Origin: Halalkalirubrum salinum
GTDB lineage: Archaea; Halobacteriota; Halobacteria; Halobacteriales; Haloferacaceae
Assembly: GCF_005543295.1 (NCBI RefSeq)
Contig: NZ_SRSG01000008.1
Span: forward strand, 1 to 64,000
Direction of reading: 5' to 3'
DNA: 64,000 bases
Shown: in pieces, positions 542 through 21,100 of the stretch
Numbering within the stretch: the stretch's first letter is position 1
Layout of the letters: each line of letters starts with the position of its first letter
Position numbers and translations under genes: made by a program
The notes under the pieces: model-generated
Seen by the model: only the letters and a program-made list of their open reading frames with translations
The model's database searches: none
What the model was told of the DNA's origin: nothing

Positions 542-616
542 TGGGTTGGGGCAGATTCGAACTGCCGACCTGCTCCGTGTGAAGGAGCCGTCATAACCTG
601 GCTAGACCACCAACCC
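542..616 (-). tRNA. tRNA-Val (anticodon CAC)
   Basis: On the minus strand the 7-base acceptor GGGTTGG (610-616) pairs with CCAACCC (543-549). There is a D arm with GG, an anticodon stem GCTCC/GGAGC enclosing loop TTCACAC (anticodon CAC), and a T arm with TTCGAAT. Position 542 supplies the discriminator A. No CCA is encoded, as is usual in haloarchaea. It is the partner of tRNA-Val(GAC) at 31.4 kb. Confidence 0.93.
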
Positions 617-814
617 GATCGCACTCAACCGTTGCCCGACGATCGACTTAACAGTTACCTTGTCGGGTGAAACGAGCGCAAAAATCGATCGATCGGCACA
701 TACTTGTCTAACTGGTCGGTCCTAAACTGTGGTCAGTGATATCATCAAAATATCAATTTAGTAGGAGCGATCGGTTTTGACACTAAGAGACTCTCTTTTG
801 ACTTGTTTAGTTCC

Positions 815-1510
815 TCAAAACTCGATCCAGTCGCTGTCTTTCGCATTCGTCCGTGTCCGATATCCCCGAACTGGGTCTGTGCGGGTTTCAACGACGACAT
901 CAAAGTAATGCTGAAGTGCAGTTGTCTGATTATCATACCCAATGCCCGTATCGACCGTTGCGACTCCAATCGAGTGGGGTGCCTTTGCCAGATCAACATA
1001 CGCCTTCGTGAAGCGATACACGTTCGTTCCCTCTCCGCTCAATAAGAAATGCGAGAGCGAGTCGATCCCAATCCCCAGCCGACTATCGGTGGTCTGTTCT
1101 ATCGCCTCAATCGCATTGGTGATGCTCACGCCGACAGCAGTGGTGTTTCGCCCGGTTTTTGTCACACGAGCACTATCCAGTGATTGCGCTCCAGTCTGTT
1201 GGTAGGTCGTGGATTCAACAATGTGGAGGTGCTCTAGAGTGGTCGCCGCTCGGTTGCTAAAGGCTGTTTCGATCCGCTCGGCACTGGTGTTTGTCGTGGC
1301 GAACACAGCATCATCAGCGTAGTGACCGAGTATATCGATCGCCAACTCGGATTTACCAGATTGTGGCGGCCCAACAACCAGTATCGAATCAATCTGTGGA
1401 CGCTGCTTCGCTGTGAATGAGTCCAGTAGTTGAGCCCGGCCGTCCTGCTTACGCGATGGGCCGCCATCCGCTGTCGGAACGTGCCGACCTAGAGCGTGCA
1501 AACCACTCAT
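815..1510 (-). CDS. RecA/KaiC-like P-loop ATPase
   Basis: This 231-residue protein has a Walker A motif GPPQSGKS at about residues 47-54 and a Walker B-like strand ending at Asp150 (LGIGIDSLSH). That is the layout of the small haloarchaeal RecA/KaiC-like ATPases often found beside HTH_10 (Bat-type) sensors. There is no second ATPase domain and no membrane segment. It lies 112 bases downstream of the response regulator on the same strand, so it is probably the third gene of the operon. A role in signal output or phosphorelay modulation is inferred from context only. Confidence 0.65.
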   Translation of the reverse strand: MSGLHALGRHVPTADGGPSRKQDGRAQLLDSFTAKQRPQIDSILVVGPPQSGKSELAIDILGHYADDAVFATTNTSAERIETAFSNRAATTLEHLHIVESTTYQQTGAQSLDSARVTKTGRNTTAVGVSITNAIEAIEQTTDSRLGIGIDSLSHFLLSGEGTNVYRFTKAYVDLAKAPHSIGVATVDTGIGYDNQTTALQHYFDVVVETRTDPVRGYRTRTNAKDSDWIEF

Positions 1511-1622
1511 TGTTAATTTGCTGCACGGGAATACGTGAATTCCTTTTCACGATACATGTCGAAGTGTGATCTCTGACACCGATATATATCGGGTTTTCCT
1601 GCAGCCGTTAGCTGCAGCGGTG

Positions 1623-4394
1623 TTATTTCCCGCCAAACAAGACGGTGAGTATCTTCTTTTCAGCGCTTCTGAGGTGCTGTTGAAAAGTAGACTGAGCAAT
1701 ACCGATGGTGTCCGCAACTGTCGATGAGTCGGCCTCGCGTGGCCACTCAAAATATCCCGCATAGAACGCGGTTTGTGCTACCTCACGCTGGCGCTTAGTA
1801 AGCGTTTTGTCGACCGCTTGGACAGTATCGATGAATCCACTTGTCGTATCTCCACGCTCGCGGCGCGCGACAAATCTAGTCGTCGGGCTGCTATCGTTGA
1901 TCGCCTCGACATAGCGTCTGATGTCGACGCCTCGATCAACCGTAACAATCACCCGCTGATCGCCCCCAGATCGGTACTCGAGTCGTTCGAGTGCGCCACC
2001 ATACTCGATAAACGGGGTCAACACTGATTCTGCGTCAATAGATACTCTCAGCACTGTTGATGCTGGGTTTGTTTGAACAACCGACACGTCTGTCCGATCG
2101 GCAAGTGCATCACCGAGAATTCCGGTATCGTGGTCATCAGACTCTGTTGGCACAGAAATGAAAGCAGCATATCCGCCGCCCCGGATTGGTGTAACGTTTT
2201 GAATGGTAATGTTGTCACCAAGTGTACTGGCGATGTCGGTGATAGTAGACGACTTGGTCGTCACTTCAAACTCTAATTCGACGCCGCCGCCAGCAAGCAG
2301 CGACTCTCGTTGGTGAACAGAGCTAATGCCGTGACCGATCGTCTGGCCGAGTTCGGCGAATGCGTTGACCTCGTCGTCATCAAATCCCTGTGGACTTGCG
2401 CTGTGGATTTCAAGCGCACCGTGGATCGTTTCTCCGTGGACTAGTGGGACCGCGAGGATTGCGTGGTGACCAAGTGACAGCGCCTCACCTCGCCACCACG
2501 TCTCTGTCGAGACTGACAGAACGTCCTCAATAACGACCGGCGCTGTTTTCTGAATCGATTGCGCTGCGGGGAGCCGCGTATTGGTGTTGATCTCACCCGT
2601 TTCAGCTGGGTCTGGCTGTCCAGTGAGTCCATCAAGATACCCACCGCCGTCTCCGGCGACAGCCTTCGTCTCAAGAGAAGTGCGTTCGACCGGCCAATCA
2701 GCAATCCAGACAAACGGGAAGCGATCGATCCCCGCAATCTGGCGACACACGTCCCGCTCGATTCCTTCGCGGGTCTCAGCGCCGACAACAACCTTGCTTA
2801 TCGACCGAATGAGCCTGTTGATCCGATCGAGCCGCTCCAGTCGGCTGTTTTGCCACTCGAGCCGTCGGTCTCGCTGTCTGAGCGCGTTGTCCTGCTGGAG
2901 CCGAGTGAGCGATCGTTCGGCGTTTGCAGCCCACATCTCCGCAAGGTCAACATCGAACTCATAGCTCGAAGGCTGTTCGTCAAATCCAACAAGCAACACC
3001 CCTCGACGTTCCAGCGGACACAACATCCAGGTCCCGAGTGACGCAAGCCACTCCGGCTGGGGAGTATCACCCGTAGAATATTGTTGTGAGTGTGTCGTCT
3101 GTTGTTCGGTAAATGTCGACCAAAGTGGTCCCGTTCCATCAGTGACTGTTGGGAGTTGTGTTGGGTCGTCGATCGCTCCCGCGGCGGCGACCGGCGAGAG
3201 TTCTCCGGTTGTCTCATCCCACCGAAATAACGCCGCCGTCGAAAACTCAAGATCCTCAGTAGCCGTGTCGACGATTTCTCTCGTTATTGCCGCAGCAGTC
3301 GTGGCGGTTACCAACCAGTGGGTCGCTCGCTGGAGGGTGTGCAATGTTTGTTCCCGTTCGTGCTGGCGCGTAATGTCGTGGAAGTGTTCAATCCGGCCGC
3401 CTGCGTACAACCCTGTCTTGATCGGGGCGCTCCAGTACTCCAACTGACGTAGGGTGCTGTTTCCGTCGGACGGCACAGTCACAGCTGTTGTGTGTTCCAT
3501 GTCAGATGCGAGTACCTGCTGAACTAGGTCGCCGAGCGGACCTTCTGTTGCGGTGATTCCACGGTAAACGTCAGGTGCGGCTTCTGCATACATGTGCCCT
3601 ACGAGCGAAGCAGGAGGCACCCCGAGAAGCGTCTCAACGGCACTGTTTGCCCACACGATTTCTCCATCCGCATCAACGACGACGGTCCCTTCCCGGGAGG
3701 TGTCCATCACGTCGTTTGTCAATGATTCGTTGCGTCGGCGTTCTTCGCGTTCGGTTTTTGTCCGCTGCATTCGCTCAACAGCGGCCCTGAAATCCTCGTC
3801 TGGTAGGCTCGTCAAGAGCATTTCTACGGACTCTTGTACCTGAGCCAACTGCTCCGTGAGCGCCGCGTACTCACTGCTTTCTTCAAGCACCTTCGGATCG
3901 GTCGATGCTTCAAGCGTTGACTGCCGCTCCATCAGCGAAAACAACTCTCGAAGCTGCTCATCGTACGTCGCGCGGGTCTGCATCCGGTCGATCGTCTGTT
4001 TGAGCTCTGTTTCCGTGGTCGGCTTTTGTACGTACGCGTCGAAGCCCATGCGAACAATATCTACCCCGGGTTGCACCGCCGATACCATCACGACTTGGCA
4101 GTCTACGTCAGCGTCTCTGATACGCCTGAGGAGTTCGTCGCCCGACATCCGTGGCATCACGCGATCTAAAAGCACGACATCAACTGCTTCATCGAACTGC
4201 TCCCAGCCGTCATATCCGTCATGTGCAACCCGAGTATTACATATATCACCGAGCCACGCTGCGTAGAGTTCTGCTAAATTTATATCATCTTCGACAATTA
4301 GTACCTCCACCTCGGTCGACCCGTCCGACTCATCCGACTCGTTTTCGGATTCCACGCTCGACGTACTATCAGAGTTGTGTGATACTTCCGTCAT
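1623..4394 (-). CDS. Response regulator: REC-HalX-PAS-GAF-GAF-HTH_10 (Bat-like)
   Basis: A 923-residue cytosolic regulator. Residues 30-140 form a receiver domain with acidic residues Asp36/Asp37, phospho-acceptor Asp77 (LLDRVMP), Ser105 and Lys124. A HalX helical segment (about 145-215) follows, then a PAS domain (222-345), two GAF-like domains (365-500, 530-690) and a bacterio-opsin-activator-type region. The C-terminal HTH_10 begins at LTKRQREV (about 865-915). The family usually activates light- or redox-responsive genes. The start codon overlaps the stop of the kinase gene as ATGA, so the pair is translationally coupled and almost surely cognate. The target genes are unknown. Confidence 0.85.
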   Translation of the reverse strand: MTEVSHNSDSTSSVESENESDESDGSTEVEVLIVEDDINLAELYAAWLGDICNTRVAHDGYDGWEQFDEAVDVVLLDRVMPRMSGDELLRRIRDADVDCQVVMVSAVQPGVDIVRMGFDAYVQKPTTETELKQTIDRMQTRATYDEQLRELFSLMERQSTLEASTDPKVLEESSEYAALTEQLAQVQESVEMLLTSLPDEDFRAAVERMQRTKTEREERRRNESLTNDVMDTSREGTVVVDADGEIVWANSAVETLLGVPPASLVGHMYAEAAPDVYRGITATEGPLGDLVQQVLASDMEHTTAVTVPSDGNSTLRQLEYWSAPIKTGLYAGGRIEHFHDITRQHEREQTLHTLQRATHWLVTATTAAAITREIVDTATEDLEFSTAALFRWDETTGELSPVAAAGAIDDPTQLPTVTDGTGPLWSTFTEQQTTHSQQYSTGDTPQPEWLASLGTWMLCPLERRGVLLVGFDEQPSSYEFDVDLAEMWAANAERSLTRLQQDNALRQRDRRLEWQNSRLERLDRINRLIRSISKVVVGAETREGIERDVCRQIAGIDRFPFVWIADWPVERTSLETKAVAGDGGGYLDGLTGQPDPAETGEINTNTRLPAAQSIQKTAPVVIEDVLSVSTETWWRGEALSLGHHAILAVPLVHGETIHGALEIHSASPQGFDDDEVNAFAELGQTIGHGISSVHQRESLLAGGGVELEFEVTTKSSTITDIASTLGDNITIQNVTPIRGGGYAAFISVPTESDDHDTGILGDALADRTDVSVVQTNPASTVLRVSIDAESVLTPFIEYGGALERLEYRSGGDQRVIVTVDRGVDIRRYVEAINDSSPTTRFVARRERGDTTSGFIDTVQAVDKTLTKRQREVAQTAFYAGYFEWPREADSSTVADTIGIAQSTFQQHLRSAEKKILTVLFGGK

Positions 4395-7300
4395 AGCTCT
4401 CCTTGACTACTCCGAGCTAACTGTGGTGATTGTGCATAGCAGTTTGGAAGTCGCAACTCGATGACCGTTCCACGATCGTTCTCGCGGACGTTCACCTCTC
4501 CTCCTGAGCCAGTCACGACCATCCTTACAAGCCAAAGACCGACGCCCTGGCCATGATTCAGCGGCGTCTCCTCGCCCTCTTCGAGGACACTGGCCTCCAT
4601 CTCTGGAAGACCGGGGCCGTTGTCTGCAACTTCAAAGTCTACCCAGTCATCGTCACTTGAGACGGTCAACGATACCTCGTTTGTTGGTGAGGCTGCTATG
4701 GCGTTGTCGATGAGTTCGATCAACGCTGCGCGGACCGTACTTGAGACAACCGCTTCACTTTGGGTTTCTGTTAGTGCAACGGTCGCTTCTGGATGCAATC
4801 GCGCTACCTCTTCGAGTGTCGACGCCATCAACGGGGTAACCGCTGAGCGGCTGAACGCATCGTCATCAGAGAGTAGCCGTTGAATCTCTCTCGTCTTTTC
4901 GGTCATCGAATCCCACGTGTCGAATACATCTGTTAACACATCGACCGCGGTGGCCGTCTGCTCGTCGTCCACCCGATCGGCGATCATCTCTGCGTACCCA
5001 CGAGCTTTTGTCAAGTCGTTTCGGATGTTGTGGCGCATAATTCGCTGAAGCGCCTGGAGGTACTGCCGTCGCCGATGTTTTTGAGTGATATCTCGCACCT
5101 CAAGTATCAATAGATCGACATTTCCAGTCTCATCGGCGACCGGACTGATAGCCATGTCGACCGTAATCAGCCCCGAAGGTGTAAGAATTGCAGTCTCGTA
5201 GCGAACGAACTCTCCGCCAGCGGCGGTTCGCACTGCTTTTGTGGCCCACTGTTTTGCCTCTTGATCGTGGTCCCACCACGAGAGAGTACTGAATGTCTGC
5301 TCGATTACCTCGTCGATCGACTCTGCGGTGTGCTCTGTGAGTGACTCGTTTACCTCGAGAAACCGACCGTTCGCGTCCAACAGACCGATAAACTGAGACG
5401 CTTGCTGGAATATGCCCTCAAATCGACGCTCTTGACGTTTCTGTTCGGTGACATCACGAAGGTATAACAGCATGCCCCCGATCGCACTATCATCCTCGTA
5501 GTTGAACATCCGCACATCGAGGGTCCGCCACGTCCCATCGCTGGCTCGTGCCCGACACTCGATCTGCGAATGTGCCTCTGGATCTGAGACGGTCGAGAAA
5601 AACGCGTCCATCGCCGCTGTTCTGTCTTCAGTATGGATGAGATCGAACAAATTCTCTCCCAGCAGTTCGTCGCTTCTGTACGCCAATACGCGCTCAATGA
5701 CGGGGCTGACGTACTCTATGGAACCATCTTTTTCGAGTACACTTACAACGTCGATGGATTCTTCGACGAACCGCTGGGTCCGCCGTTCTCGTTCGCGCTG
5801 GTCAGTCAGATCCCGACAGATCATCGCGTATCCGCGGAACGCACCACTATCGTTTTCGATCGGAGCGTAGCGGACGTCTGCGGGGAAGGTCGTGCCGTCG
5901 GCCCGTACCCGTTTTCCGCTGTCAGCGCTTTCACCACTGATGCGTGCTTGCTCAAGCAGTCGGTTTGGTACATCGTTGGCTTGCTCGTCCGCAGGATGAA
6001 GTACCTCCATCGGCATTCCGATCGCAGTCTCGCGATCGTAGCCGAACAGCCGTTCTGCGCTATCGTTCCACGCCGCGATCGCTCCGTCGGTATCGAAGAC
6101 GACAAACGCGTACTCGTCGACCGCGTCAACGAGCATCCGAAACCGCTCTCGCTCTTCGTACAACTGTGCCTCGCGTTGCTTTCGTTCGCTGATATCGGTG
6201 ACTGTCGCAAGTATGCGGTCGGAGTCGTCGACCCCCTCAACAGCAATGGCTCGAATTGCGACCCACCGAGTCGTCTCTGTAGCCGTAATACGGGCTTCCC
6301 CTGACCAGGTGTCGATATCGTTCTTGAGTGAGTCAAATGCGGTTGCTAATTTCGACCGATCGGCCGGATGTAACGACTTCAGTACGTCGTTGAAGCTTTG
6401 TAGTTCCGTATTGAACACATCCTCAAGCGAGTCATCTGTAGTCACTGCGCCCGTTTTCATCTCTATCTCGATAATGCCAGTTCCGGTGCCACTCAATGTG
6501 AGGTCTAATCGGCGTTGTCTGTCTTCGAGTGTCTCAATACGCCGGTAGCGCTCGGTCACATCCTGTTGGATCCCGATATAATTCACCAGCGTACCATTGT
6601 CGAACACCGGTGTGATCGAGAGGCGGTTCCAGTATGCAGTCCCGTCTTTGCGCTTGTTTTGTAGCTCAAGCGTCACGGACCGCTGCGCTTCGATCGCTTT
6701 TCGAATGGCATCCAAGGATGCGTCTTTCGTGTCTGTTCCTTGGAGGAACCGCGGGTTCTTTCCGAGCACTTCAGCCTTTTCATACCCAGTAATCCGTTCA
6801 AACCCGTCGTTGACGTACACAAGCGGGTTGTTCGGCTTTGTTGGGTCTGTAATCTGAATCCCAACACTTGCGGCATCCATCGCCTGTTCTTTGAGCTGTA
6901 ACTCGCGTTCGCGCTCTTTCTTTTCGGACTCATCACGGACAGTACAGACGAGCCGGCCGTCCTCAACAATTGTCAGAGATAACTCTGCGGGGAATGTCGA
7001 CCCATCTGGCCGGGTACCAGTCACGTCACCTCGCCAGTATCCCTCTGAGCTAAGCGCGGGGAAGGCTTCCGCCTCTAGGCGTTCGACCTCGGCTTTGTCG
7101 TAGAGCTTCTTCCACGTCTTTCCAAGCAGTTGCTCGGTACTCTCAAAGCCGTACATGTCAACGTGGGTCTGGTCGATGAAAACATATTCATCCTCTTCAA
7201 GCACTGCAACGCCGTCTTCTGCGGATTCGATCGCTTGTTGGAACGATTCGAGTTCCCGTCGCCTGCGCTCGCGACCTGTCACATCTCTCCCGGAGATTAT

Positions 7301-9715
7301 CAGTGATTCGACAGTGCCATTGTCATCTGTTACCGGTCGAATTGTCCCAGAGAGATGTATTGTTTGTCCGTTTTCGTCCTCAAACGATTGTTCCCAGTCG
7401 ATGTACTCACCAGCGGCCGATCGACGGATACGTGCCTGTGCATCTTTTTGGAATTCGGGTTTGTCTGCGAACCACTCAAGATCCCACAATGCGACACCAG
7501 CAACATCACCGTCTTGGCAGAGATACTCACGTGCAGCTTTGTTCAATTGAATAATCGACCCGTCTGTCTCGACAGACGCCATGAGACTCTGTGGATCATT
7601 AAATACCGACTCGAATCGGCGCTCGTTACGTTGGCGTTCGCGTTCGCGCGCCACACGCTCGGTCTCATCTCGAACGATGCACAGCAGTCGATTGTCTCTC
7701 AACACAGTGAGCGAGAGCCACACCGTCAGTTCAGCTCCGTCGGGCCGTTCGGAGGTAATGCGCCCGCTCCATCGTCCTTCCGCGGCGAGGACCGGGAATA
7801 CCTCTGATTCGAACCACGCGATCTGTTCGTTCGATCGGTAGAGCTTCTGCCACGTGTCGCCGAGAAGATCAGACCGGTCTTCGAACCCGTATATATCCGC
7901 GTGGGTTTGGTCGACATACACGTACGTGTCGCCGTCCAGTATTGCAATACCCTCACTAGCGGTTTCGATGGCCTGTTTAAACGATTTTAGTCGACGGTTC
8001 TGTCTACGTTGTTCGGTCACGTCCCGGAGTATGCCCGCCGAGCCGGTTACTCCGTCATCTCTAATGAGCGCGAGGCTGTTTTCCACGATGCGCTCCTCAC
8101 CGTCAGCGTCTCTGAGAGTGAACTCGGTCGACAGGGTCCGGCGATCGTCGCTTGCTAGTTTATGTATCTCATCGGAGATCTGTGCGACATCCTCCAGATC
8201 CATTCCCACGGAGACGTGTTGTCCGATAATCTCTTGACCGTAGCCGAAGTCCTCTTTTGCCGCTTGGTTTACATATGTAAATCGGCCGTCAGTATCGAGT
8301 GCGTACACTGGATCACCAACAGCTTCCAAAATTGTCTCGTACCGGCGAAGCTCTCTGTATCGGGTTTGTTGTTCGATCTCGTTTCCAATCCATCCTCCGA
8401 TAGCGCTGACAAACTCTGTGTTGATCAGATCGTTTTCTGTCTCGAAAGTCGCTGCGCCACAAAAGCAGACGGCCCCGTAGATCTCCTCCTCGACAATGAG
8501 CGGATACCCAACGTACGTGTTAGCGCCCTCCGCTAGCGCTGCTCGATCGAGACAGTCGATATCCTCGAGATCAGCGATCGCGACCGGTCCCGCAGCGTTC
8601 GCTTCGGTCACCATCGGACACAGCGTCTCCGCGAACTGGTGTACGGCTTCGTCAGTTATCCGATCAGTTTCGGTGACAACTGTTTCGACGCGGTGAGTGT
8701 CTCCATCTCCTTTGATCCGGGAGACGACACCCGTATCCAGTGACAGATGCTCACACCCCAGCGAGAGCAACGCTTCGAGAGTCTCATCGAACCCCATATC
8801 GCTGGTAACGATTTCGTAAAGCCGTTGAGATACGTCGCTTTTTGTCTTGAGGCGCGCGTTGTTAGCGATCCGAGTGACCGCCGTTTCGAATGCCGCTGCG
8901 ACACGTACGATCGTTTCGCGGCTGTTGTCTGTTAACGACTCTTGTCCGGGCGCATCGACGCTCATAACCCCGAATTCATCGATGGGCACGAGCAACTCGC
9001 GCTGTACAGTTGCTTCGGAATCAGGGGTTCGATCCGAATCAGCGGTGTAGTCGATCAGTTTCGGGTCACCTGCCTCGTAGACATCCCCGACGACAGAGTC
9101 AGGCGAGCGATCGGTTGGTCCCGCTGTGCGGTCAACGGTTGCGTCTGATTTTGGATATCTTTCGAAGCGCTCAGTTGCTGGATCGTGGCGCCAAAGTGCG
9201 GCCCCCGGCCGATTACACAGTTCGTCTACTGTCCCAAGAGCCACCTCCGCTGCTTGCTCAACACTGTCCGCCTCGTTCATTGCCGCTGTCATCTCAAGAA
9301 CGGCAGTATTCGGCGTTCTATTTGAGTGTACTGTGGCCGCCTGGGTAGTGCTCTCTATTGATGTTGACGCGTGAGGAGTTGTGACTGTTGACTCCTGGTC
9401 GGACCCGCCTGCCAACAAGAGGTAAACTCTTGTTTCGGTTCCCTCTACGGGTTGATCCGCTGCAGGCGGTGTTACTTCGCACGCCCACACGCGATCGCCA
9501 CCGGCCGTCTGTATCGAGTAGAGGTTGTCAGCATCCATCGCCTCAACAGGCGCAACGACCGACTCCAGCGGCTCGCCGACTAGCTCGGTAGAATCGTATC
9601 CCAACCACTCGACTACTGTCTCATTGTAGTCCTCAATTGGTCCCCATACCGCTTCGGTATGTCTGAGATCAAATCGAAACGCACACGGGTCGTTTTGACT
9701 ATTAGCTACCTGCAT
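4391..9715 (-). CDS. Giant multi-PAS/GAF soluble histidine kinase
   Basis: This 1774-residue protein has no membrane segment. It has an N-terminal PAS-like stretch, two GAF domains (about 140-285 and 295-450) and about nine PAS domains between residues 455 and 1545. A dimerisation/phospho-acceptor helix carries His1562 (IMRHNIRND). The HATPase domain has N box ELIDNA (near 1670), G1 DNGPGLP (near 1700) and G2 GQGVGLW (near 1725). The PAS at about 935-1055 is LOV-like but has Pro where the photoactive Cys would be (GKNPRFLQG). PAS domains at 575-690 and 820-930 are near-duplicates. It should phosphorylate the overlapping downstream regulator. The stimulus is unknown; cofactor-bound redox, oxygen or light sensing is likely. 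Confidence 0.9.
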   Translation of the reverse strand: MQVANSQNDPCAFRFDLRHTEAVWGPIEDYNETVVEWLGYDSTELVGEPLESVVAPVEAMDADNLYSIQTAGGDRVWACEVTPPAADQPVEGTETRVYLLLAGGSDQESTVTTPHASTSIESTTQAATVHSNRTPNTAVLEMTAAMNEADSVEQAAEVALGTVDELCNRPGAALWRHDPATERFERYPKSDATVDRTAGPTDRSPDSVVGDVYEAGDPKLIDYTADSDRTPDSEATVQRELLVPIDEFGVMSVDAPGQESLTDNSRETIVRVAAAFETAVTRIANNARLKTKSDVSQRLYEIVTSDMGFDETLEALLSLGCEHLSLDTGVVSRIKGDGDTHRVETVVTETDRITDEAVHQFAETLCPMVTEANAAGPVAIADLEDIDCLDRAALAEGANTYVGYPLIVEEEIYGAVCFCGAATFETENDLINTEFVSAIGGWIGNEIEQQTRYRELRRYETILEAVGDPVYALDTDGRFTYVNQAAKEDFGYGQEIIGQHVSVGMDLEDVAQISDEIHKLASDDRRTLSTEFTLRDADGEERIVENSLALIRDDGVTGSAGILRDVTEQRRQNRRLKSFKQAIETASEGIAILDGDTYVYVDQTHADIYGFEDRSDLLGDTWQKLYRSNEQIAWFESEVFPVLAAEGRWSGRITSERPDGAELTVWLSLTVLRDNRLLCIVRDETERVARERERQRNERRFESVFNDPQSLMASVETDGSIIQLNKAAREYLCQDGDVAGVALWDLEWFADKPEFQKDAQARIRRSAAGEYIDWEQSFEDENGQTIHLSGTIRPVTDDNGTVESLIISGRDVTGRERRRRELESFQQAIESAEDGVAVLEEDEYVFIDQTHVDMYGFESTEQLLGKTWKKLYDKAEVERLEAEAFPALSSEGYWRGDVTGTRPDGSTFPAELSLTIVEDGRLVCTVRDESEKKERERELQLKEQAMDAASVGIQITDPTKPNNPLVYVNDGFERITGYEKAEVLGKNPRFLQGTDTKDASLDAIRKAIEAQRSVTLELQNKRKDGTAYWNRLSITPVFDNGTLVNYIGIQQDVTERYRRIETLEDRQRRLDLTLSGTGTGIIEIEMKTGAVTTDDSLEDVFNTELQSFNDVLKSLHPADRSKLATAFDSLKNDIDTWSGEARITATETTRWVAIRAIAVEGVDDSDRILATVTDISERKQREAQLYEERERFRMLVDAVDEYAFVVFDTDGAIAAWNDSAERLFGYDRETAIGMPMEVLHPADEQANDVPNRLLEQARISGESADSGKRVRADGTTFPADVRYAPIENDSGAFRGYAMICRDLTDQRERERRTQRFVEESIDVVSVLEKDGSIEYVSPVIERVLAYRSDELLGENLFDLIHTEDRTAAMDAFFSTVSDPEAHSQIECRARASDGTWRTLDVRMFNYEDDSAIGGMLLYLRDVTEQKRQERRFEGIFQQASQFIGLLDANGRFLEVNESLTEHTAESIDEVIEQTFSTLSWWDHDQEAKQWATKAVRTAAGGEFVRYETAILTPSGLITVDMAISPVADETGNVDLLILEVRDITQKHRRRQYLQALQRIMRHNIRNDLTKARGYAEMIADRVDDEQTATAVDVLTDVFDTWDSMTEKTREIQRLLSDDDAFSRSAVTPLMASTLEEVARLHPEATVALTETQSEAVVSSTVRAALIELIDNAIAASPTNEVSLTVSSDDDWVDFEVADNGPGLPEMEASVLEEGEETPLNHGQGVGLWLVRMVVTGSGGEVNVRENDRGTVIELRLPNCYAQSPQLARSSQGEL

Positions 9716-10045
9716 GAATGGTACTCTCGATCGAGAGCGCTGACTTATTGCCCCCTGTTATAAAACACCATACGGGTCGCCGGTGTCACCGTGCGTGCGT
9801 CGCTTTTCATGAAATTCATGTTATGCTAGTTATTAATAATATAAAAATATATGTTTTATAATACGATATGTATTGGATCCTATTATTTGCATACCGATAC
9901 ATATCAAAATACGATCTCAGTCCCTCGACGACTGACAGGGACTGTAGTCATGGCAGGATTGTGGGGTTTCTCTCCGAGGTAGTTCCATCGTTGACGCTGA
10001 CCGATACTTCTCGAAAGAATGGGCCGATCGTCGCCCGCGGCTCGG
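9716..10045. other. AT-rich intergenic region upstream of the kinase operon
   Basis: No coding frame is supported. It contains the minus-strand promoter of the kinase operon (9758-9765), a 14-base perfect palindrome beside it, and a markedly AT-rich block around 9820-9905. The block could bend, carry further TATA elements, or be worn intergenic DNA. Confidence 0.5.
9724..9765 (-). promoter_or_regulatory. Promoter with adjacent palindrome (candidate operator) of the kinase operon
   Basis: On the minus strand TTTTATAA (9758-9765) is a good TATA box, about 46 bases before the kinase start codon. CTCTCGATCGAGAG (9724-9737) is a perfect 14-base palindrome between the box and the start, near the expected transcription start. 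A repressor or the operon's own HTH_10 regulator could bind it; this is inference. Confidence 0.4.
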
Positions 10046-10327
10046 TTACGCCGTAGGTGGCTGTTCGATGTCGTCGGATTGCTCGCCGCGGACCCGGTGG
10101 CGGGCCTCAGCAGTCACCTCACGGGCTTCCCCCGCAACGCGGGACGGCAACTCACGGAGTTCAGCTTTGACCGTCTCCACACGGGAGACCTGTGGCTGCT
10201 CAACCTCCCGGCCCAGCGCCTTTCGCACGCGCGTTTCGATCGGCGAAAGCTGCTCTGAGAGCCCCGCTCGCACGTGGAACACTGTTCGACCGAGGTAATA
10301 CCATGCGTCTTTGAAGTGTCGGTTCAT
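10046..10327 (-). CDS. Small haloarchaeal protein (DUF7553-like)
   Basis: A 93-residue, largely helical, charged protein beginning MNRHFKDAWYYLGRTVF. A hydrophobic or amphipathic N-terminal helix is followed by a long Glu/Arg-rich amphipathic segment. It resembles small haloarchaeal proteins grouped under DUF7553, a tentative match made from memory of the N-terminal pattern. No catalytic motif is visible. It has its own well-placed TATA box, so it is likely monocistronic and expressed. Function unknown. Confidence 0.7.
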   Translation of the reverse strand: MNRHFKDAWYYLGRTVFHVRAGLSEQLSPIETRVRKALGREVEQPQVSRVETVKAELRELPSRVAGEAREVTAEARHRVRGEQSDDIEQPPTA

Positions 10328-10349
10328 ATTCGTCCTTACGCAGCCAACA

Positions 10350-10357
10350 GATATATT
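10350..10357 (-). promoter_or_regulatory. TATA box for the small protein at 10046-10327
   Basis: On the minus strand AATATATC lies about 26 bases before the ATG at 10327, the spacing expected for a leaderless haloarchaeal transcript. Confidence 0.55.
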
Positions 10358-10431
10358 CTTTGTGTTGGATCACAGAACACGAAATACGTCGCTGGTCGAT
10401 CGTCAAACCGGAGTCGAAGTGAGCGATCGGG

Positions 10432-10965
10432 TCAGTACGACGGCGACTCTTCGGGGACGCCGTCGCGTTTGTTGACCAATCGGGCGAGGGTGAAAAGCGC
10501 GTCAGAGAGGCGGTTGAGGTAGACGATCGCCTCCTCGTTGACCGGATCGGTCCCCGCCAGCGAGACCGATCGGCGTTCGGCCCGCCGGACAACCGCCCGA
10601 GCGTGGTGCAAGCGCGCGCCGGCCTCGCTCCCGCCGGGAAGAATAAACGACTGCAGCGGGTCGAGTGCCTCGTCTGCGGTGTCGATCATCGTTTCGAGCG
10701 CGTCGATGTGGGCTTCTTTGATCTGGGGATCGTCAGGATCCGGGTCGGGATTCGCAAAATCGGCCTGGATGATGTGGAGGTGGTTCTGGATCGTCTCCAG
10801 CCACTCGTCGACATCGTCGTAGCCACTCGGGCGGATCGACCCGATAAGGGCATTAGCTTCGTCGACGGTGCCGTAGGCTTCGATCCGTGGGCTCGTCTTC
10901 GAGACCCGCGACATGTCCCGCAGATCTGTCAGTCCCTCGTCGCCGCGGCCGGTGTATATTTTCAT
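10432..10965 (-). CDS. pduO: Cob(I)alamin adenosyltransferase, PduO type
   Basis: A 177-residue protein of the PduO/EutT-like ATP:cob(I)alamin adenosyltransferase family, which makes adenosylcobalamin. It opens with MKIYTGRGDEGLT, the family's phosphate-binding N terminus. It also has EAYGTVDEANA and a helical core with the RRAERR stretch typical of the ATP/cobalamin site. The length is normal. It lies 9 bases after a glutaredoxin gene on the same strand and is probably co-transcribed. The cofactor it makes is needed by the B12-dependent ribonucleotide reductase encoded at 18-25 kb. Confidence 0.92.
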   Translation of the reverse strand: MKIYTGRGDEGLTDLRDMSRVSKTSPRIEAYGTVDEANALIGSIRPSGYDDVDEWLETIQNHLHIIQADFANPDPDPDDPQIKEAHIDALETMIDTADEALDPLQSFILPGGSEAGARLHHARAVVRRAERRSVSLAGTDPVNEEAIVYLNRLSDALFTLARLVNKRDGVPEESPSY

Positions 10966-10974
10966 GATTTGTCC

Positions 10975-11214
10975 TTATGCGAGCGTCTGCTCAATGTATT
11001 CGAGGATGTTGTCGCTTTCACACATCGTCACGCCGCGATCGTCGTCGACGAGAACGGGCACGCCGCGCTGGCCGCTGACGCGTTTGACCTCGTTTCGATC
11101 CGAGTGCATCGCGTCTGTCCAGACGGTTTCATACTCGATTCCGTGCTCCGAGAGGGCATCGTGTACCTTCACACAGAATGGGCAGCCATCGAGCGCGTAC
11201 AGCGTTAGCGACAT
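10975..11214 (-). CDS. Glutaredoxin-like thiol-disulfide protein
   Basis: A 79-residue protein starting MSLTLYALDGCPFC, with the glutaredoxin active site CPFC near residues 11-14, a cis-Pro segment (RGVPVLVDDD) and a C-terminal helix. The ATG at 11212-11214 is preferred because it puts the first beta strand at the N terminus and gives the normal family length; a longer frame upstream has no fold features. It sits 9 bases upstream of pduO on the same strand. Confidence 0.88.
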   Translation of the reverse strand: MSLTLYALDGCPFCVKVHDALSEHGIEYETVWTDAMHSDRNEVKRVSGQRGVPVLVDDDRGVTMCESDNILEYIEQTLA

Positions 11215-11287
11215 ACACAGCGGTTGGTGCTTCGAGGGCAAGTACCTTCGGCTCGTGACGAGAATCACACACGGCGACGACCGCGAT

Positions 11288-11701
11288 TCACTCCTCGATC
11301 GTGTCAGGGACACTGTACTCAGCGATCGCCTCGCGCCACGGCTCTGGAATCCGACGAGACGACCCGGTTTCAGCGTCGATCAACACCAACACGGTCTCCG
11401 CAGTTGCCGCACGGTCACCGTTCGATCGAATCTCGTACGTCATCGGAATACTCGATCGGCCGATGTCGCCGACGCCGATGCCGATCGACACCTCGTCGCC
11501 GAGTTCGATCGGCCGCTCGTAGTCGATCGACAGCGAGGCGATCACCGATCCAGCATCGCGAACGCTGAGGCCCAGCGCCTCCTCGAAAAACACCACTCGC
11601 GCCTGTTCGAGGTACGTGACGTACACCGCGTTGTTGACGTGGCCCATCGCATCGATATCACGAAACCGAACCGGCATCGTCGTCGTGAACGGCAAGTCCA
11701 T
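11288..11701 (-). CDS. Acyl-CoA thioesterase, 4HBT hot-dog family
   Basis: A 137-residue hot-dog-fold protein. The motif RFRDIDAMGHVNNAVY is the 4-hydroxybenzoyl-CoA thioesterase signature, with the catalytic Asp in DxxGHVNN. It probably hydrolyses acyl-CoA in the cytosol; the substrate cannot be told from sequence. I chose the ATG at 11699-11701 because the only longer alternative needs a TTG. It stands between the glutaredoxin and diadenylate cyclase genes on the same strand with modest gaps. Confidence 0.85.
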   Translation of the reverse strand: MDLPFTTTMPVRFRDIDAMGHVNNAVYVTYLEQARVVFFEEALGLSVRDAGSVIASLSIDYERPIELGDEVSIGIGVGDIGRSSIPMTYEIRSNGDRAATAETVLVLIDAETGSSRRIPEPWREAIAEYSVPDTIEE

Positions 11702-11817
11702 GGACGTGATTTTTCGAGCGGACAAATGTAGCCACCGATACCGGCGGCCTCGGCTGGCACCTCGTCGGTTCGCCGACCGCGGTCAGGCGCCGATCGCGTG
11801 TTGAACCCGCTCAGTCA

Positions 11818-12366
11818 CTAAGCCGAGCGCCAGCGCTCGGCAATTCGATCACGCGTGGCCGTGTGCATCGTCCCGTCCTCAAACGTCGACACCCGCCCCG
11901 TCTCCTCGCTGAGTGTCACCGTCGCGACGACCGCCGGCCGCAGCGAGGTTTCGATCGCGCTCATGTGTCTAGCACCCATCCACGGCTCGTAGCCGATCTC
12001 ATCTGGATCGCTATCCTCGCCGGAGTAATCCCGAAACCGAACCATCGATGACTCAATCTGGCCGTCAACGGCGATGATCACAGCCCCGTCACACTCGCGA
12101 GCGACCTGTCGGCAAGTGTCAACGAACGCATCCTCGGTGTAGGCGGACGCACACTGCTTGACAGGCCAGCGGGTATCACCCATGGAGTCGGCGTACATGC
12201 CGTACTCCCGATCGGCGACGATCCCAACGTAGAGGCCGGGGCCGGCGAGCGCCGGTTCCTCCCAGCCGTCGAACCCGAGGCTCACGCACTCGGCAGCGAA
12301 GCGAACCCGGGCAATCAACTCGCGGACTGGCGGGTGGGATCGATAGTCGATCGAAAGTCGAGTCAC
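11818..12366 (-). CDS. dacZ: Diadenylate cyclase (c-di-AMP synthase), DacZ type
   Basis: A 182-residue protein matching the stand-alone DisA_N-type cyclase of haloarchaea. It carries a DG-containing strand (IIAVDGQIES) and the ARHMSAIETS segment corresponding to the family's RHR/S nucleotide-binding motif. It would condense two ATP into c-di-AMP, which in haloarchaea is tied to osmotic homeostasis. No partner domain and no membrane anchor are present. The family assignment rests on motif order and length; the usual DGA is DGQ here. Confidence 0.75.
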   Translation of the reverse strand: MTRLSIDYRSHPPVRELIARVRFAAECVSLGFDGWEEPALAGPGLYVGIVADREYGMYADSMGDTRWPVKQCASAYTEDAFVDTCRQVARECDGAVIIAVDGQIESSMVRFRDYSGEDSDPDEIGYEPWMGARHMSAIETSLRPAVVATVTLSEETGRVSTFEDGTMHTATRDRIAERWRSA

Positions 12367-12481
12367 CGCAGATCACCGCGAATGGACGGACAAATTGAGA
12401 CACCAGCGTGGACCATGCGCGATACACGATCGGCTGTGTGAAGAATCGCCCGATCAATGCAGTGAAGACGGCCTGTAACGG

Positions 12482-12531
12482 CACGCTAGCGGCTTGTCTA
12501 CCAGCCGGAAACATCACGCTAGCGGCTCGTC
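12482..12531. repeat. Two short direct repeats between dacZ and the SDR gene
   Basis: CACGCTAGCGGCTTGT (12482-12497) recurs with one change at 12516-12531, 34 bases apart, just past the 3' end of the SDR gene. Each copy contains the palindrome GCTAGC. Role unknown: a transcript end structure or slippage product are both possible. Confidence 0.45.
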
Positions 12532-12550
12532 CACCTGACCAACGATGGCG

Positions 12551-13237
12551 TCACCGGGTGGCTTTCTTCCATGTTCTGAGATCGACCACCTCGCCGTCGA
12601 TCGTCGCCGGATCGGCGTCCGTCGCCGCCCACAAAAACATTGGCGCGACATCCTCGGGCGATCGGGCCGAGTCGACGCCGGTGAGATCGGTCGCAACAAG
12701 TCCCGGATCGACAACCGCAACCGGCTGGTCAATGTCGGTCGAAAATGCCCGTGCGACTGCCTCCGCGCCGGCTTTCGAGATCGCGTATGTACCCATATTC
12801 GGCTTCGGCTCGCGGGCGATCTTTCCGGAGGGAACGAGCACCCGACCCTCGTCGCTCAGGTGTGGAATCGCCTCGGCGATCGTCGCAAAGACGCCGCGGA
12901 CGTTCGTTCGCATCGTGTCGTCAAAGCGGGCGTACGGCTCCTCGGGTAGCGGCATCTCCCCGGGTGTCCCGTGGTTGACCCCAGCGTTCGCAATCACGAC
13001 ATCGATCGTCCCACCGCCGGCTTTCGCCGCGGTTTCCATCAGCCGCTCGGCATCGAACTCGTCGCGAACGTCGGCGCGAACGCCGGTGAGCTGTTCGTCG
13101 TCGCCGGCGATCGCCGCAACCGCCTCGGCGTCGCGGCCGCAAAAGATCACCTGTGCGCCGTCGTCGACAAAAGCTGCAACGATCGCCCGTCCAATCCCGC
13201 GCGTTCCGCCAGTGACAACAACCGTCCGATCACTCAT
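12551..13237 (-). CDS. Short-chain dehydrogenase/reductase (SDR)
   Basis: A 228-residue classical SDR with the cofactor-binding TGGTRGIG near residues 9-16, the NAG motif (VIANAGVNHG), an upstream catalytic Ser (VLVPSGKI) and the YAISK catalytic Tyr/Lys pair. It is an NAD(P)-dependent oxidoreductase in the cytosol; the substrate is not determinable. It is divergent from the carotenoid operon, sharing about 130 bases of intergenic DNA, so co-regulation is possible but not shown. Confidence 0.9.
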   Translation of the reverse strand: MSDRTVVVTGGTRGIGRAIVAAFVDDGAQVIFCGRDAEAVAAIAGDDEQLTGVRADVRDEFDAERLMETAAKAGGGTIDVVIANAGVNHGTPGEMPLPEEPYARFDDTMRTNVRGVFATIAEAIPHLSDEGRVLVPSGKIAREPKPNMGTYAISKAGAEAVARAFSTDIDQPVAVVDPGLVATDLTGVDSARSPEDVAPMFLWAATDADPATIDGEVVDLRTWKKATR

Positions 13238-13340
13238 AAGTGGGCTACGGGCTCCGGCGTCCTAAATGTGCGCTCGAACCGCGGCATGTCCACCCCTGCA
13301 GCCGAATTGTCGGCCCAAACCGACACCCAAAGTCCGGTAT

Positions 13341-13347
13341 TTTATAC
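13341..13347 (+). promoter_or_regulatory. TATA box of the carotenoid operon
   Basis: TTTATAC is centred 26 bases before the ATG at 13370. This is the expected spacing for a leaderless transcript and supports that start over the much longer open frame. Confidence 0.65.
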
Positions 13348-13369
13348 CCACACACAACGTACCGTCTGT

Positions 13370-14893
13370 ATGGATTTTGCCGCCGAACGGAGCCAGATCA
13401 ACGTCGATCACAAATCCCTCTCGTCGGTCGCCGGCCAGGACGTTGTCGTCATTGGCGGCGGCTTCGGCGGGCTCTCGACTGCCTGCTACCTTGCCGACGC
13501 CGACGCGAACGTGACGCTCATCGAGAAGAATAAACAGCTCGGTGGACGCGCGAGCCGTCTTGAAACGGACGGATTCCGCTTCGACATGGGTCCCTCCTGG
13601 TACCTGATGCCGGACGTCTTCGAGCGATTTTTCGCACACTTCGATCGCGACGTTGAGGACTACTACACGCTCTCGCGGCTCGACCCGCACTACCGGATCT
13701 TCTTCAAAGACGGCGATCAGGTCGATCTCGTTCCGGACGTCGAGCAGAACAAAGAGCTCTTCGAGTCCTACGAGCCGGGCGCCGGCGAGGCGCTTGAGGC
13801 GTACCTCAAGGAGTCGAAACAAAACTACGAGATCGGGATGGAACACTTCGTCTACACCGATCGGCCGCGCTTTCGCGACTACATGGACCTCGACGTGCTT
13901 CGGTACTCGTGGGGGCTGTCGCTTATCGGTTCGATGCAAGGCCACGTCGAGGACTACTTCGATCACCCGAAGCTCCAGCAGATCATGCAGTACACGCTCG
14001 TGTTCCTCGGGGGCTCCCCGTACAACACGCCGGCGCTGTACAACCTGATGAGCCACGTCGATTTCAACATGGGCGTGTACTACCCCGACGGAGGAATTGG
14101 CGCGGTCGTCGACGGGATCGTCGAACTCGGAGCAGAGCTCGGCGTCGAATATGTAACCGACCAGCCGGTGACCGAGATCGCCGGTCGACGCGGCGGCTTT
14201 GCAGTCCGGACGGCGACCGGCGATGAGTACCTCGCTGATCTCGTCGTTTCGGATGCTGACTACGCCCACACAGAACAGGAGTTACTCCCGCCAGAGAAAC
14301 GCCAGTACGACGCGGACTACTGGGAATCTCGGACGTACGCGCCCTCGGCATTCCTGTTGTACCTCGGCGTCGAAGGCGACGTCGAGCCGCTCGCACACCA
14401 CACGCTTGTGTTGCCGACAGAGTGGGACGGACACTTCGAGCAGATTTTCGATCGCCCGGCGTGGCCCGACGACCCTGCCTACTACCTCTGTGTCCCCTCG
14501 AAGACCGACGACACCGTCGCTCCGGAGGGACACAGCAACCTCTTTGCGCTCGTTCCGATCGCCCCTGGACTCGACGACACTGAGTCACTTCGGGCGGAAT
14601 ATCGCGATCAGGTCCTCGAGGATATCGCGGCAAACACCGGCGTCGACCTCCGCGATCGGATCGTCTTCGAGCGGATGTTCTCGGTCAACGATTTCGCCGA
14701 TCGCTACAACAGCATGAAGGGAACGGCACTTGGGATGGCCCACACACTCAGACAGACGGCGCTGTTCCGCCCGCCGCACCACTCGAAGGCCGTTGACGGG
14801 CTCTACTTTACAGGATCGTACACGACTCCTGGGATCGGCGTGCCGATGTGTCTGATTAGCGGCCAACTTACCGCCGAACAGATGGCCGATTGA
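13370..14893 (+). CDS. crtD: Carotenoid 3,4-desaturase (CrtI/CrtD family)
   Basis: A 507-residue FAD-dependent phytoene-desaturase-like enzyme. The N-terminal Rossmann motif is VVVIGGGFGGLSTACYL, with a following ExNxxxGGRA segment (IEKNKQLGGRAS). The C-terminal FAD motif is YFTGSYTTPGIGVPM. It is the first gene of crtD-lyeJ-cruF, the set established in Haloarcula japonica for making bacterioruberin from lycopene, where CrtD introduces the 3,4 double bonds. The start is chosen from the TATA box 26 bases upstream; the open frame reaches back much further antisense to the SDR gene. Only 6 bases separate it from the next gene. Confidence 0.9.
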   Translation: MDFAAERSQINVDHKSLSSVAGQDVVVIGGGFGGLSTACYLADADANVTLIEKNKQLGGRASRLETDGFRFDMGPSWYLMPDVFERFFAHFDRDVEDYYTLSRLDPHYRIFFKDGDQVDLVPDVEQNKELFESYEPGAGEALEAYLKESKQNYEIGMEHFVYTDRPRFRDYMDLDVLRYSWGLSLIGSMQGHVEDYFDHPKLQQIMQYTLVFLGGSPYNTPALYNLMSHVDFNMGVYYPDGGIGAVVDGIVELGAELGVEYVTDQPVTEIAGRRGGFAVRTATGDEYLADLVVSDADYAHTEQELLPPEKRQYDADYWESRTYAPSAFLLYLGVEGDVEPLAHHTLVLPTEWDGHFEQIFDRPAWPDDPAYYLCVPSKTDDTVAPEGHSNLFALVPIAPGLDDTESLRAEYRDQVLEDIAANTGVDLRDRIVFERMFSVNDFADRYNSMKGTALGMAHTLRQTALFRPPHHSKAVDGLYFTGSYTTPGIGVPMCLISGQLTAEQMAD

Positions 14894-14899
14894 GCAGCC

Positions 14900-15790
14900 A
14901 TGGAAAACGTTGAAACGGGCGCCGGACGGACTGACAGATCGATGCGTGATCGGCTCTGGTATCTCTTGACACTCTCACGGCCGCGCTTTTGGCTCTACCT
15001 CGCCGGCCCGATCGTCGTCGCGGTTGCCGCAGCCGCGAGCACCCCCGAAGAGCTGTTTCTGCCCGACGCAGTCTTGCTCTTTGGGTACTTTCTGTTTCCG
15101 GCGAACGTGCTGTTGTACGGCGTCAACGACCTGTACGATCGCGAAATTGACGAAGAGAACCCGAAAAAAGACGACAAAGAGGCGCGATGGCAAGGCGACC
15201 GGCTCGTCCTCGTGACCGTGATCGCAAGCGGACTTGCGGGCGTTTTGTTGTTCGCCGTCATTCCTCCACTCGCGTGGCCGTGGCTTGTGGGCTTCTTTTT
15301 GCTTGCAATCGGTTACAGCGCGCCGCCACGGTTCAAGACGATCCCGATCGCGGACTCGGTCTCCAACGGGCTGTACATTTTGCCCGGCGCTGCCGCCTAC
15401 GCGATCGTGGCCGGGACACAGCCGCCCGTGCTTGCGGTCGCGGGTGCGTGGCTGTGGACGATGGGAATGCACACGTTTTCGGCGATCCCGGATATCGAAC
15501 CCGATCGGCGTGCCGGGATCCAGACGACAGCGACGTGGCTTGGCGAACGTCGGACGTACGCCTACGTCGCCGCCTGCTGGATCACAGCGGCGACCGCCTT
15601 CTTTGTCGTCGATTCACGCCTTGGCGCCCTCATGGCGGTGTATCCGGTGTTCGTCGCCGGCGTTGTCAAAAGCAACATCTCGGTCAGCCGAGCGTACTGG
15701 TGGTTCCCGGCGTTGAACACGGTCGTCGGTACGCTCGTAACGCTAGGTGCACTGTGGCAGATCGTGCCGATCTGGGTGGTGCTGCCGTGA
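14900..15790 (+). CDS. lyeJ: Lycopene elongase/1,2-hydratase (UbiA family)
   Basis: A 296-residue UbiA-type membrane prenyltransferase with about eight hydrophobic segments. The first prenyl-diphosphate/Mg2+ motif is NDLYDREID near residues 76-84; a second aspartate-rich motif is IPDIEPDRRAG. It would add C5 units from dimethylallyl diphosphate to both ends of lycopene, giving the C50 skeleton. It follows crtD by 6 bases and precedes cruF. The family is certain; the exact substrate comes from the conserved cluster. Confidence 0.92.
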   Translation: MENVETGAGRTDRSMRDRLWYLLTLSRPRFWLYLAGPIVVAVAAAASTPEELFLPDAVLLFGYFLFPANVLLYGVNDLYDREIDEENPKKDDKEARWQGDRLVLVTVIASGLAGVLLFAVIPPLAWPWLVGFFLLAIGYSAPPRFKTIPIADSVSNGLYILPGAAAYAIVAGTQPPVLAVAGAWLWTMGMHTFSAIPDIEPDRRAGIQTTATWLGERRTYAYVAACWITAATAFFVVDSRLGALMAVYPVFVAGVVKSNISVSRAYWWFPALNTVVGTLVTLGALWQIVPIWVVLP

Positions 15791-18102: not shown

Positions 18103-21100
18103 TTAACACTCAGACCAGCCGCAGGACTCACACGTCTTACAGCCTTCCGAGAAGTACAGCGTCATATTGCCGCACTCTGGACACTCGGGGCTTTCGCCTG
18201 CAGCGAGCAGGTCCTCGGTTGCATCAGCCGATGGTTCAGCTGTGTTTGACGCTTCCGTTGTAGTCGACTCTGACACCGACGCACCGCCGTCCGTCTCCGG
18301 TGGCACCGCCTCAGTGTCTTCGAGTTCGGTGAGATTCTGCTGTTTCGGGTACGGCTTGTCGATCTCACCGTCGAGATACCGTTGCATTGCGGTTCCGATC
18401 GCATCTGGAATGGAGTTGATCTGTTCGCCTTTGTCCCAGGCGACCTTCGGACTCCGGATGCCCTTGAGTTCGCTTGCAATCTCTGCTGGATCGACGCCCG
18501 ATCGCAGCGCTGTCGAGATTGTCTTCGCGAGCGCCTCGGTGAACGAGGCAGTGAAGCCGCCCGAGTTGCCAATGTTCGCGAACAGTTCGAATGGCCGTCC
18601 CTCGGCGTCCTCGTTGATGTTGACGTAGAGCTTCCCGTAGCCGGTGTCGATGCGCTGAGTCACCCCATAGAGCACGTCTGGACGCGGCTGTTTTGTTCCA
18701 AGGCGCTCTTCAGATCCATCAAAGAGGCTGTCAAGCTCCACGGAGAGCTCCGCACGAACCTCCTCGCTGTCGAGGAAGCCCTCGATGCCGCCGAAGACTG
18801 CCTCGATCTGGGCGACGATCTGTTCGGCCGCCTCAGCGTCGTCAGCGAACTCGGTGTTCTTCGCCCGGGTCGTAAGCACCTGCTTCGATCGCGTCCCGTC
18901 GCGGTAGACGGTCACGCCCTTGCCGCCGTTGTCGTAGATGTAGCGGTACACCTCGTCCATGTCTTCGATCGACGCGGAGTTCGGGAAGTTACAGGTCTTC
19001 GAGATTGCCGAATCGACGCCTTCCTGGGCGGCACACTGCACACCCGCGTGGTCGATCCCGCTGAGGTCGGAGGTGACGACGAACAGCTCACCGATCGCGT
19101 CCGGGACGGTCTCAAGTCCCTCAACGCCGTCGAACTCGTTGTTCGCCATCTGGTCTTGGGCCTCGCGTTTGACCGTCTCGACGTCGATGTCGTTGGCCTC
19201 CAGCACCCGCAGGAAGTAGTCGTCGAACTCGACGAGCATCTCGTCGCCCTGCACGTCGTCGGAGACGTTCTTGTAGTAGGCGACGTTGAAGATCGGCTCA
19301 CAGCCACCCGTGGTATTTCCGACCATCGAGGTGGTGTTGTGCGTCACAAAGCCGTTTGCAACGTACGTGTTGTTCGACGGGACACTGATATCTTTCGTAT
19401 AGGCTTTGCCTTCGCTGACAGATTCGACGGTTGCGGCGTAGAAATCGGTTAGCCGACGCCCCTCAAGCGTTACCGTCGATCCAGTCTCTTGTTCGATATC
19501 ACGGACGAGTTGCCGACTGATCGAGCCGTTGATTGGCGATTGGTTCACTCGGTGTTTTACAGCGCGTGAAACCGATTCGTACCCGGCAACACTTCTGAGC
19601 TCATCGACGATCGCCGGCGGATACGAGTCGTTTTTGTACGACTGTGCGGTGAGGTTGATAGAGGTCGATTTCGTAATAAATCCAATCTCTTCGAGGAATC
19701 GCTTGTCTTCGCGTTTGTTTGCTCCACGAAGTCTGTACCGCGGCCGATCTCCGTAGTGGTCGTCTCGATCTGCCATCTCTAACACATCTGAGACGAACAC
19801 GCATCCGAGCGCTAACAGCAGTGTCTGGACTTGCTCAGCAAGCGTCGACGACACCGTCGAGAGTTCGACCTTTCTGGAAGCCGTGCCATCAGCTTCGAAA
19901 AGCCCACGAAGGAATGCCTTCGCGATCGGCTCGTCACCGCCGAGAACCTCTGTCGGTACGAACGCACTCGCTGCTCCTTCACCCTTGTTGCCGCGATCTT
20001 TTGTCCAGCCGTTGTCCTCGAAGTATCGCGGGAGATGTCGACCACCGAATGTCAGCACGTGGCGCGTGTCGCGATCTTCAACGACGGGTTCGACGCCAAA
20101 CACAGATTCACCGAGTTCACGGAGATATTCATCGAGCGCATCCGCGCTCGAATCGACGACGAGTTTGACTCCGACGCCGTCATGGACGTATCCATCACCC
20201 ATGTAGTACCCGAGGAACTCCGCAAGTTCCGGAGTCATCTTTTCGGGGAGCGAGAGTGCTTCGTTCGTGTTGTGATAGAAGTTGTTCCGCTCGCTCGTGT
20301 CGAGAACCATCCGCCGTCCGCCGTCAAACGTCCCGCGCTGTAACAGTATCGTGTCGTCGGCTTCGAATTCACCGGCCTCCTTCCAGACGTATCCACCATC
20401 ATCGTCGATCGTTCGGAAGCGGTGATTCGGCGTAGACGCGACACTGAATCCTTCGGCAGTCTCGATCTGACGAACCGCAGCGAAGCCGTTGTCATACACC
20501 GCGGTGGCAGTTTTTGTTCCGCCATCGGTCGAAACACCGACTTCGATTTCGTCCCACTGTTCGAACTCCGCATTTGTGTTGTCGAGATCTTTGATCGGCC
20601 GAAGCCCCTCGTCAGTCGACACTAGAGAGTTTTCATCGACACAGCCAGTCGGCGCGATCGTCGTCGTGTTGTGGTTGCGGATCGGGAAGCCGTCTGCCCA
20701 CTCGTCGGCATCGAGGCCGGTGTGGTGTTCGAACCACTCACGGTACTGCACCGGATCGGCGTACTTCGAGTCCGCCCAGTCGGTGAATACGCCACGCTCC
20801 TCAGCGAGGTTGTGCGAGGTCCACTTCGACTCGTGGTTGATGTGAGTCATGAGCTGGCGGGCGACTTCGTTGCCCTCCTCGGAGCCGTAGCGAACCCCGA
20901 GCTGGAGGTACAGCTGTGCCAGCCCCATGACGCCGAGGCCGATCTTTCGCATGTCCCGGACCTTCTGTTCGATCTCCGACACCGGGAAGTCGCTCATCGT
21001 CACCACGTTCTCGAGGAATCGAGTGCCGAGGGCGATCCGCTCGTCGAACTCCTCGTAGTCGATCGCTTCATCCAAGAACGCGGCCATCGCGTCCTCAAGT

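Follow-up and report, generated by a model that had tools for sequence, protein, structure and literature searches.

A mobile haloarchaeal kinase-regulator cassette with an unusual KaiC-superfamily third gene

In the 64,000-nucleotide stretch of Halalkalirubrum salinum DNA analyzed here (the window), a giant sensor kinase and a response regulator lie beside a small KaiC-related P-loop protein, which raises the question of whether the third gene takes part in the relay formed by the first two. A canonical P-loop KaiC relative travelling with one kinase and one regulator makes a small, testable system. Regulators of the HTH_10/HalX kind have been linked to motility. We find that the cassette is a known type of two-component partnership that moves between species and that its third gene is an unusual, single case with a putative role in the kinase-regulator relay.

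Gene layout and the empty site in a congener

All three genes are encoded on the minus strand, as intact open reading frames for a kinase of 1774 aa (4391-9715), a regulator of 923 aa (1623-4394), and a P-loop protein of 231 aa (815-1510). These positions are as given in an earlier note on this DNA, as is the ATGA by which the kinase stop overlaps the regulator start (4391-4394), and the same 4-nt overlap occurs in two orthologous loci. The regulator is separated from the ATPase gene by a gap of 112 bp (1511-1622) with three hairpins, including the palindromic CCGATATATATCGG.

The three-gene block as a whole (704-10014, with limits good to approximately 20 bp) is missing from the only available congener, where blastn alignments place window positions 542-703 and 10015-14910 next to each other with a 24-bp overlap. 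Identity on the right flank is 95%, and the empty site is bordered by tRNA-Val and a 93-aa ORF. The composition of the block is similarly distinctive, with a GC content of 54.3% compared with 61.4% elsewhere in the window, and GC3 values for the ATPase (0.556), regulator (0.578), and kinase (0.581) that fall below those of every one of the window's 42 other genes (mean 0.745, sd 0.062). Since the site is empty in the congener and the atypical composition is common to all three genes, the simplest and most likely reading is that they were gained together as one block. A block ancestral to the genus and deleted in the congener would be compatible with a comparison to one congener and with a junction that carries a short imperfect repeat only, but we consider it very unlikely in view of the GC3 of the three genes relative to each of their 42 neighbors, the mobile and plasmid-borne orthologs described below, and the restriction of full-length orthologs to 20 of 171 family genomes.

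Several other features surround the block. At 427-447, 115 bp away from the tRNA-Val(CAC) gene (541-616), the 3' end of this tRNA is repeated exactly over 21 bp; positions 1-541 do not align with the congener, and a second element at this tRNA, cut by the contig end, may be present. A protein with a match to the DAC (DisA-like nucleotide-binding) domain is encoded close to the right side of the block (11818-12366, minus strand), and a ribonucleotide reductase of 2311 aa with several intein/LAGLIDADG stretches is encoded further along (18103-25038, minus strand).

A multi-sensor kinase and its regulator

The kinase carries a long array of input domains. A local PAS model recognizes nine clear PAS domains and one weak N-terminal PAS, and Pfam reports many PAS domains, two GAF stretches (one GAF domain at 8378-8791, aa 309-446), a HATPase_c domain (59.5 bits), and a weak HisKA (20.5 bits, under the curated cut-off of 26.9). 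The earlier description of a soluble kinase with about a dozen input domains thus holds on both points, with approximately ten PAS and two GAF domains and a maximum 19-residue hydropathy mean of 1.4, which is too low for a membrane span. The HisKA-like dimerization/phosphoacceptor region and HATPase_c occupy 4445-5074 (aa 1548-1757), where the H-box MRHNIRNDL starts at aa 1560 and its histidine, His1562 (5030-5032), is conserved in orthologs, such that both the H-box histidine and the HATPase_c domain of a HisKA-type kinase are present.

One of the PAS domains (6536-6889, aa 943-1060) is LOV-like and matches YtvA LOV structures with an E-value of ~1e-32 (phmmer). This match and the retention of the neighboring motif residues would fit a blue-light receptor, with the cassette acting as a light switch, but the adduct cysteine of the GXNCRFLQ motif is absent: where photoreceptors read GKNCRFLQ the kinase reads GKNPRFLQ, with proline (aa 988) at the adduct position, as in every ortholog where the motif was found. 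We regard a light switch as distinctly unlikely, and redox sensing is as likely a use of the domain given that Cys-less LOV domains are still able to signal via flavin photoreduction (PMC4682037), which makes flavin redox sensing a fair guess by analogy.

The regulator combines a receiver, sensory domains, and a DNA-binding output, arranged as REC (3990-4304, aa 31-135), HalX (3780-3977, aa 140-205), PAS (3360-3704, aa 231-345), two GAF stretches (a GAF domain at 2325-2774), BAT (1845-2282, aa 705-850), and HTH_10 (1647-1802, aa 865-916), all assigned with Pfam. The receiver possesses the expected phosphoacceptor aspartate, Ser/Thr, and lysine in the form of Asp77, Ser105, and Lys124 (D53, S81, and K100 in A1 numbering), which are invariant in the 11 aligned sequences. 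At the C-terminal end, BAT (73.2 bits) is followed by HTH_10 (71.0 bits) in the Bat-type order, both above the Pfam cut-offs. Among the 27 HTH_10 and 7 HalX matches in this genome, only this regulator carries both domains.

Orthologs place the pair in a wider context. Eleven full-length relatives of the regulator (41-44% identity) were recovered from 119 family genomes, and a profile search detected the full-length form in 20 of 171 family genomes, one of them the present genome, with no more full-length matches past those at an E-value of 1e-55. A scan of named genomes added Halorubrum, Haloglomus, Halobellus, Halobaculum, Halonotius, Natronomonas, Halorientalis, Halosegnis, and others, leaving 26 distinct loci after duplicate removal. 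A large PAS kinase is encoded immediately upstream of the regulator at every locus with an intact contig of sufficient length, the exceptions being one locus that shows a PAS fragment only and two in which the kinase or regulator is read in pieces, and both the H-box residues of the kinase and the REC residues of the regulator are conserved. Judged from these sequences, the pair is a conserved two-gene haloarchaeal module in which the kinase nearly always immediately precedes the regulator. Between genera, the DNA identity of the regulator genes is often 94-99%, several cassettes are plasmid-borne, and some lie close to a transposase or integrase, all of which indicates a cassette that is mobile among haloarchaeal genera; the regulator profile had zero matches in viral contigs. 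The block shows giant sensor kinases moving as cassettes between genera.

This architecture suggests how the relay may operate. The cytosolic kinase would integrate many internal cues, such as flavin/redox state and small ligands, through its PAS/GAF array, autophosphorylate at His1562, and transfer the phosphate to Asp77 of the regulator with which it is co-translated. The regulator would probably dimerize via REC-HalX, be tuned a second time by its own PAS and GAF domains, and bind DNA by HTH_10, leading to altered transcription, possibly of motility or other behavior genes. Both the domains present and the conservation of the pair across haloarchaea support the earlier proposal that a single relay contains two sensing layers.

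The P-loop protein and its link to the pair

The third gene encodes a DUF7504 protein (PF24336; 66.3 bits against a gathering cut-off of 27). Its score to the KaiC family (PF06745) is 12.8 bits, under the gathering cut-off of 26.6, and the hhalign probability of 96% to that family reflects a remote relation only, so that the initial label of RecA/KaiC-like is apt at the superfamily level. The Walker A motif GPPQSGKS (1349-1372) is the only canonical GxxxxGK[ST] in the 115 DUF7504 proteins sampled, the window copy counted, and the Walker B aspartate is Asp150 of GIDS (1061-1063). In the two nearest subfamilies the GK is followed by another residue and the Walker B aspartate is mostly histidine, and a third subfamily is devoid of a P-loop. 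Because the protein lacks the glutamate found after strand 2 in KaiC-type proteins, it may plausibly bind nucleotide without turning it over quickly.

Among 119 family genomes, no relative of the ATPase exceeds 33% identity. Placement by the tree alone was rejected, as the ATPase fell on the che/cirA-linked side with a long branch of 1.79, no firm sister, and no starred set, and subfamily profiles were used instead. Of the three, the che/cirA-linked profile scores best (114.8 bits, against 70.2 and 40.8 bits for the others). The block contains no che gene, so the ATPase is not in the kaiC/che-adjacent position, which is occupied by a paralog at C8. Searches of genome contigs together with viral contigs revealed no relative, phages had none, plasmids gave two weak matches only, and no credible match was found in the PDB. 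A structure predicted from the single sequence was unusable (mean pLDDT 29.6).

The wider family shows recurrent neighborhoods of its own. At seven loci a cirA-like kaiC gene, an unknown gene of 130-155 aa, and a DUF7504 gene with a degenerate P-loop form a conserved trio, which adjoins a che cluster where the fetched flank extends far enough. At nine others a canonical DUF7504 adjoins a protein of ~700 aa, without a Pfam match in those tested; at two of these DUF7504 forms the C-terminal portion of a long fusion protein, and at four DUF7504, the unknown protein of 700 aa, and a free-standing REC-HalX regulator form a conserved run.

Is the ATPase then a regular partner of the pair? The earlier note proposed it as a third member and possible novel modulator; a conserved tie to HTH_10 regulators is not supported, since DUF7504 is absent from all 26 distinct regulator loci. 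In most of these the next gene encodes a small HalOD1 protein, followed at many loci by a REC-HalX protein and then a DUF5658 protein. Known in haloarchaea as an output domain in signalling, HalOD1 also occurs in fusions to KaiC-like ATPases (PMC5847659). With HalOD1 as the next gene in most related loci, the KaiC relative occupies HalOD1's usual place in this block, a single case that could be chance. General linkage across haloarchaea, the check that had been suggested, is likewise unsupported, as HTH_10 occurs in none of 20 DUF7504 neighborhoods, each 15 kb, and in 3 of the 20 control stretches. For REC-HalX the counts are 4 of 20 neighborhoods and 0 of 20 controls, with all four apparently representing one syntenic arrangement. 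Family co-occurrence was rejected as a test of linkage; with DUF7504 in 288 of the 293 genomes of the order and 27 HTH_10 matches in this genome alone, both families are near-universal and their co-occurrence is uninformative.

The 112-bp gap bears on whether the ATPase gene belongs to one operon with the pair, as the earlier note proposed, or is expressed independently. It folds much better than shuffled sequences (z -4.6), and one hairpin surrounds a TATATA-containing palindrome, but the TATA-like site is no better than chance, being matched in 11% of shuffles. An intrinsic terminator behind the regulator was rejected, as no T run follows the hairpin. A promoter of the ATPase's own within the gap is possible.

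The ATPase could accordingly be a passenger. In this view, an orphan DUF7504 gene chanced to sit behind the pair at the time of transfer, is transcribed from its own promoter, and acts elsewhere, for instance with the chemotaxis/CirA machinery. The lack of linkage in all 26 related loci, the kaiC/che neighbors of the nearest subfamily, and the TATA-like palindrome in the gap make this a serious possibility, though one to which we give somewhat less than even weight, as the ATPase has the strand and composition of the pair, lies with it in the acquired block, where no further gene is intact, and keeps intact Walker motifs for which a useless passenger would have no need. Because it seems to have arrived with the pair as one acquired block, a local functional link seems possible. 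This much survives of the suggestion that the ATPase is a novel modulator; the idea itself is not new, as a role as hubs of signalling in archaea has been put forward for KaiC-like ATPases (Makarova 2017, as cited in PMC5847659).

We favor, with moderate confidence, a horizontally acquired two-component cassette with which the DUF7504 protein came along, most likely as an accessory nucleotide-binding switch on the relay and maybe as a passenger. A bolder version, which we think unlikely, is a mobile cassette whose third slot is exchangeable. Here a KaiC-like switch would have taken the place of HalOD1, having retained or recovered ATP binding as the only one in the sampled family, and would gate the relay from kinase to regulator.

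Comparison with known systems

Among the closest counterparts are the plasmid cassettes of Halorientalis marina (CP095490) and Haloplanus rallus (CP034344), in which an orthologous regulator, 40% identical over its full length, likewise has a large PAS kinase directly upstream. Their third and fourth genes, however, encode HalOD1 and a second response regulator and not DUF7504 (the HalOD1 gene is not listed in the Haloplanus record). Halobacterium Bat (REC-PAS-GAF-BAT-HTH_10; PMC5847659) shares PAS, GAF, BAT, and HTH_10 with the window regulator, which differs in its intact REC followed by HalX and in its dedicated kinase partner.

For the ATPase, the relevant comparison is with CirA, a KaiC homolog that controls motility and shape in Haloferax volcanii (PMC13286277), and with the inactivated iKaiC (PMC5847659, PMC13286277). 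These too are P-loop KaiC-like proteins, and the DUF7504 subfamily nearest to the ATPase adjoins a cirA-like kaiC gene, whereas the ATPase itself belongs to DUF7504 rather than PF06745 and is without the KaiC-type glutamate after strand 2.

The gene order of the block resembles that of Haloferax volcanii HVO_1356-1357-1358, encoding in a row a kinase, a REC-HalX-GAF-BAT-HTH_10 regulator, and a receiver protein (PMC7824242), a parallel drawn from the published domain description. In both cases a PAS/GAF kinase sits beside a regulator with N-terminal REC and HalX and a further signalling gene follows, but HVO_1356 is described with one GAF and one PAS against approximately ten PAS and two GAF domains in the window kinase, HVO_1357 without the PAS of the window regulator, and HVO_1358 as a receiver protein rather than an ATPase. 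HVO_1356 drops in abundance in conditioned medium (PMC12240190), and disruption of HVO_1357 by insertions leads to hypermotility (PMC7824242). The HVO_1357 and CirA parallels, and only those, suggest that the window cassette may also have a role in motility.
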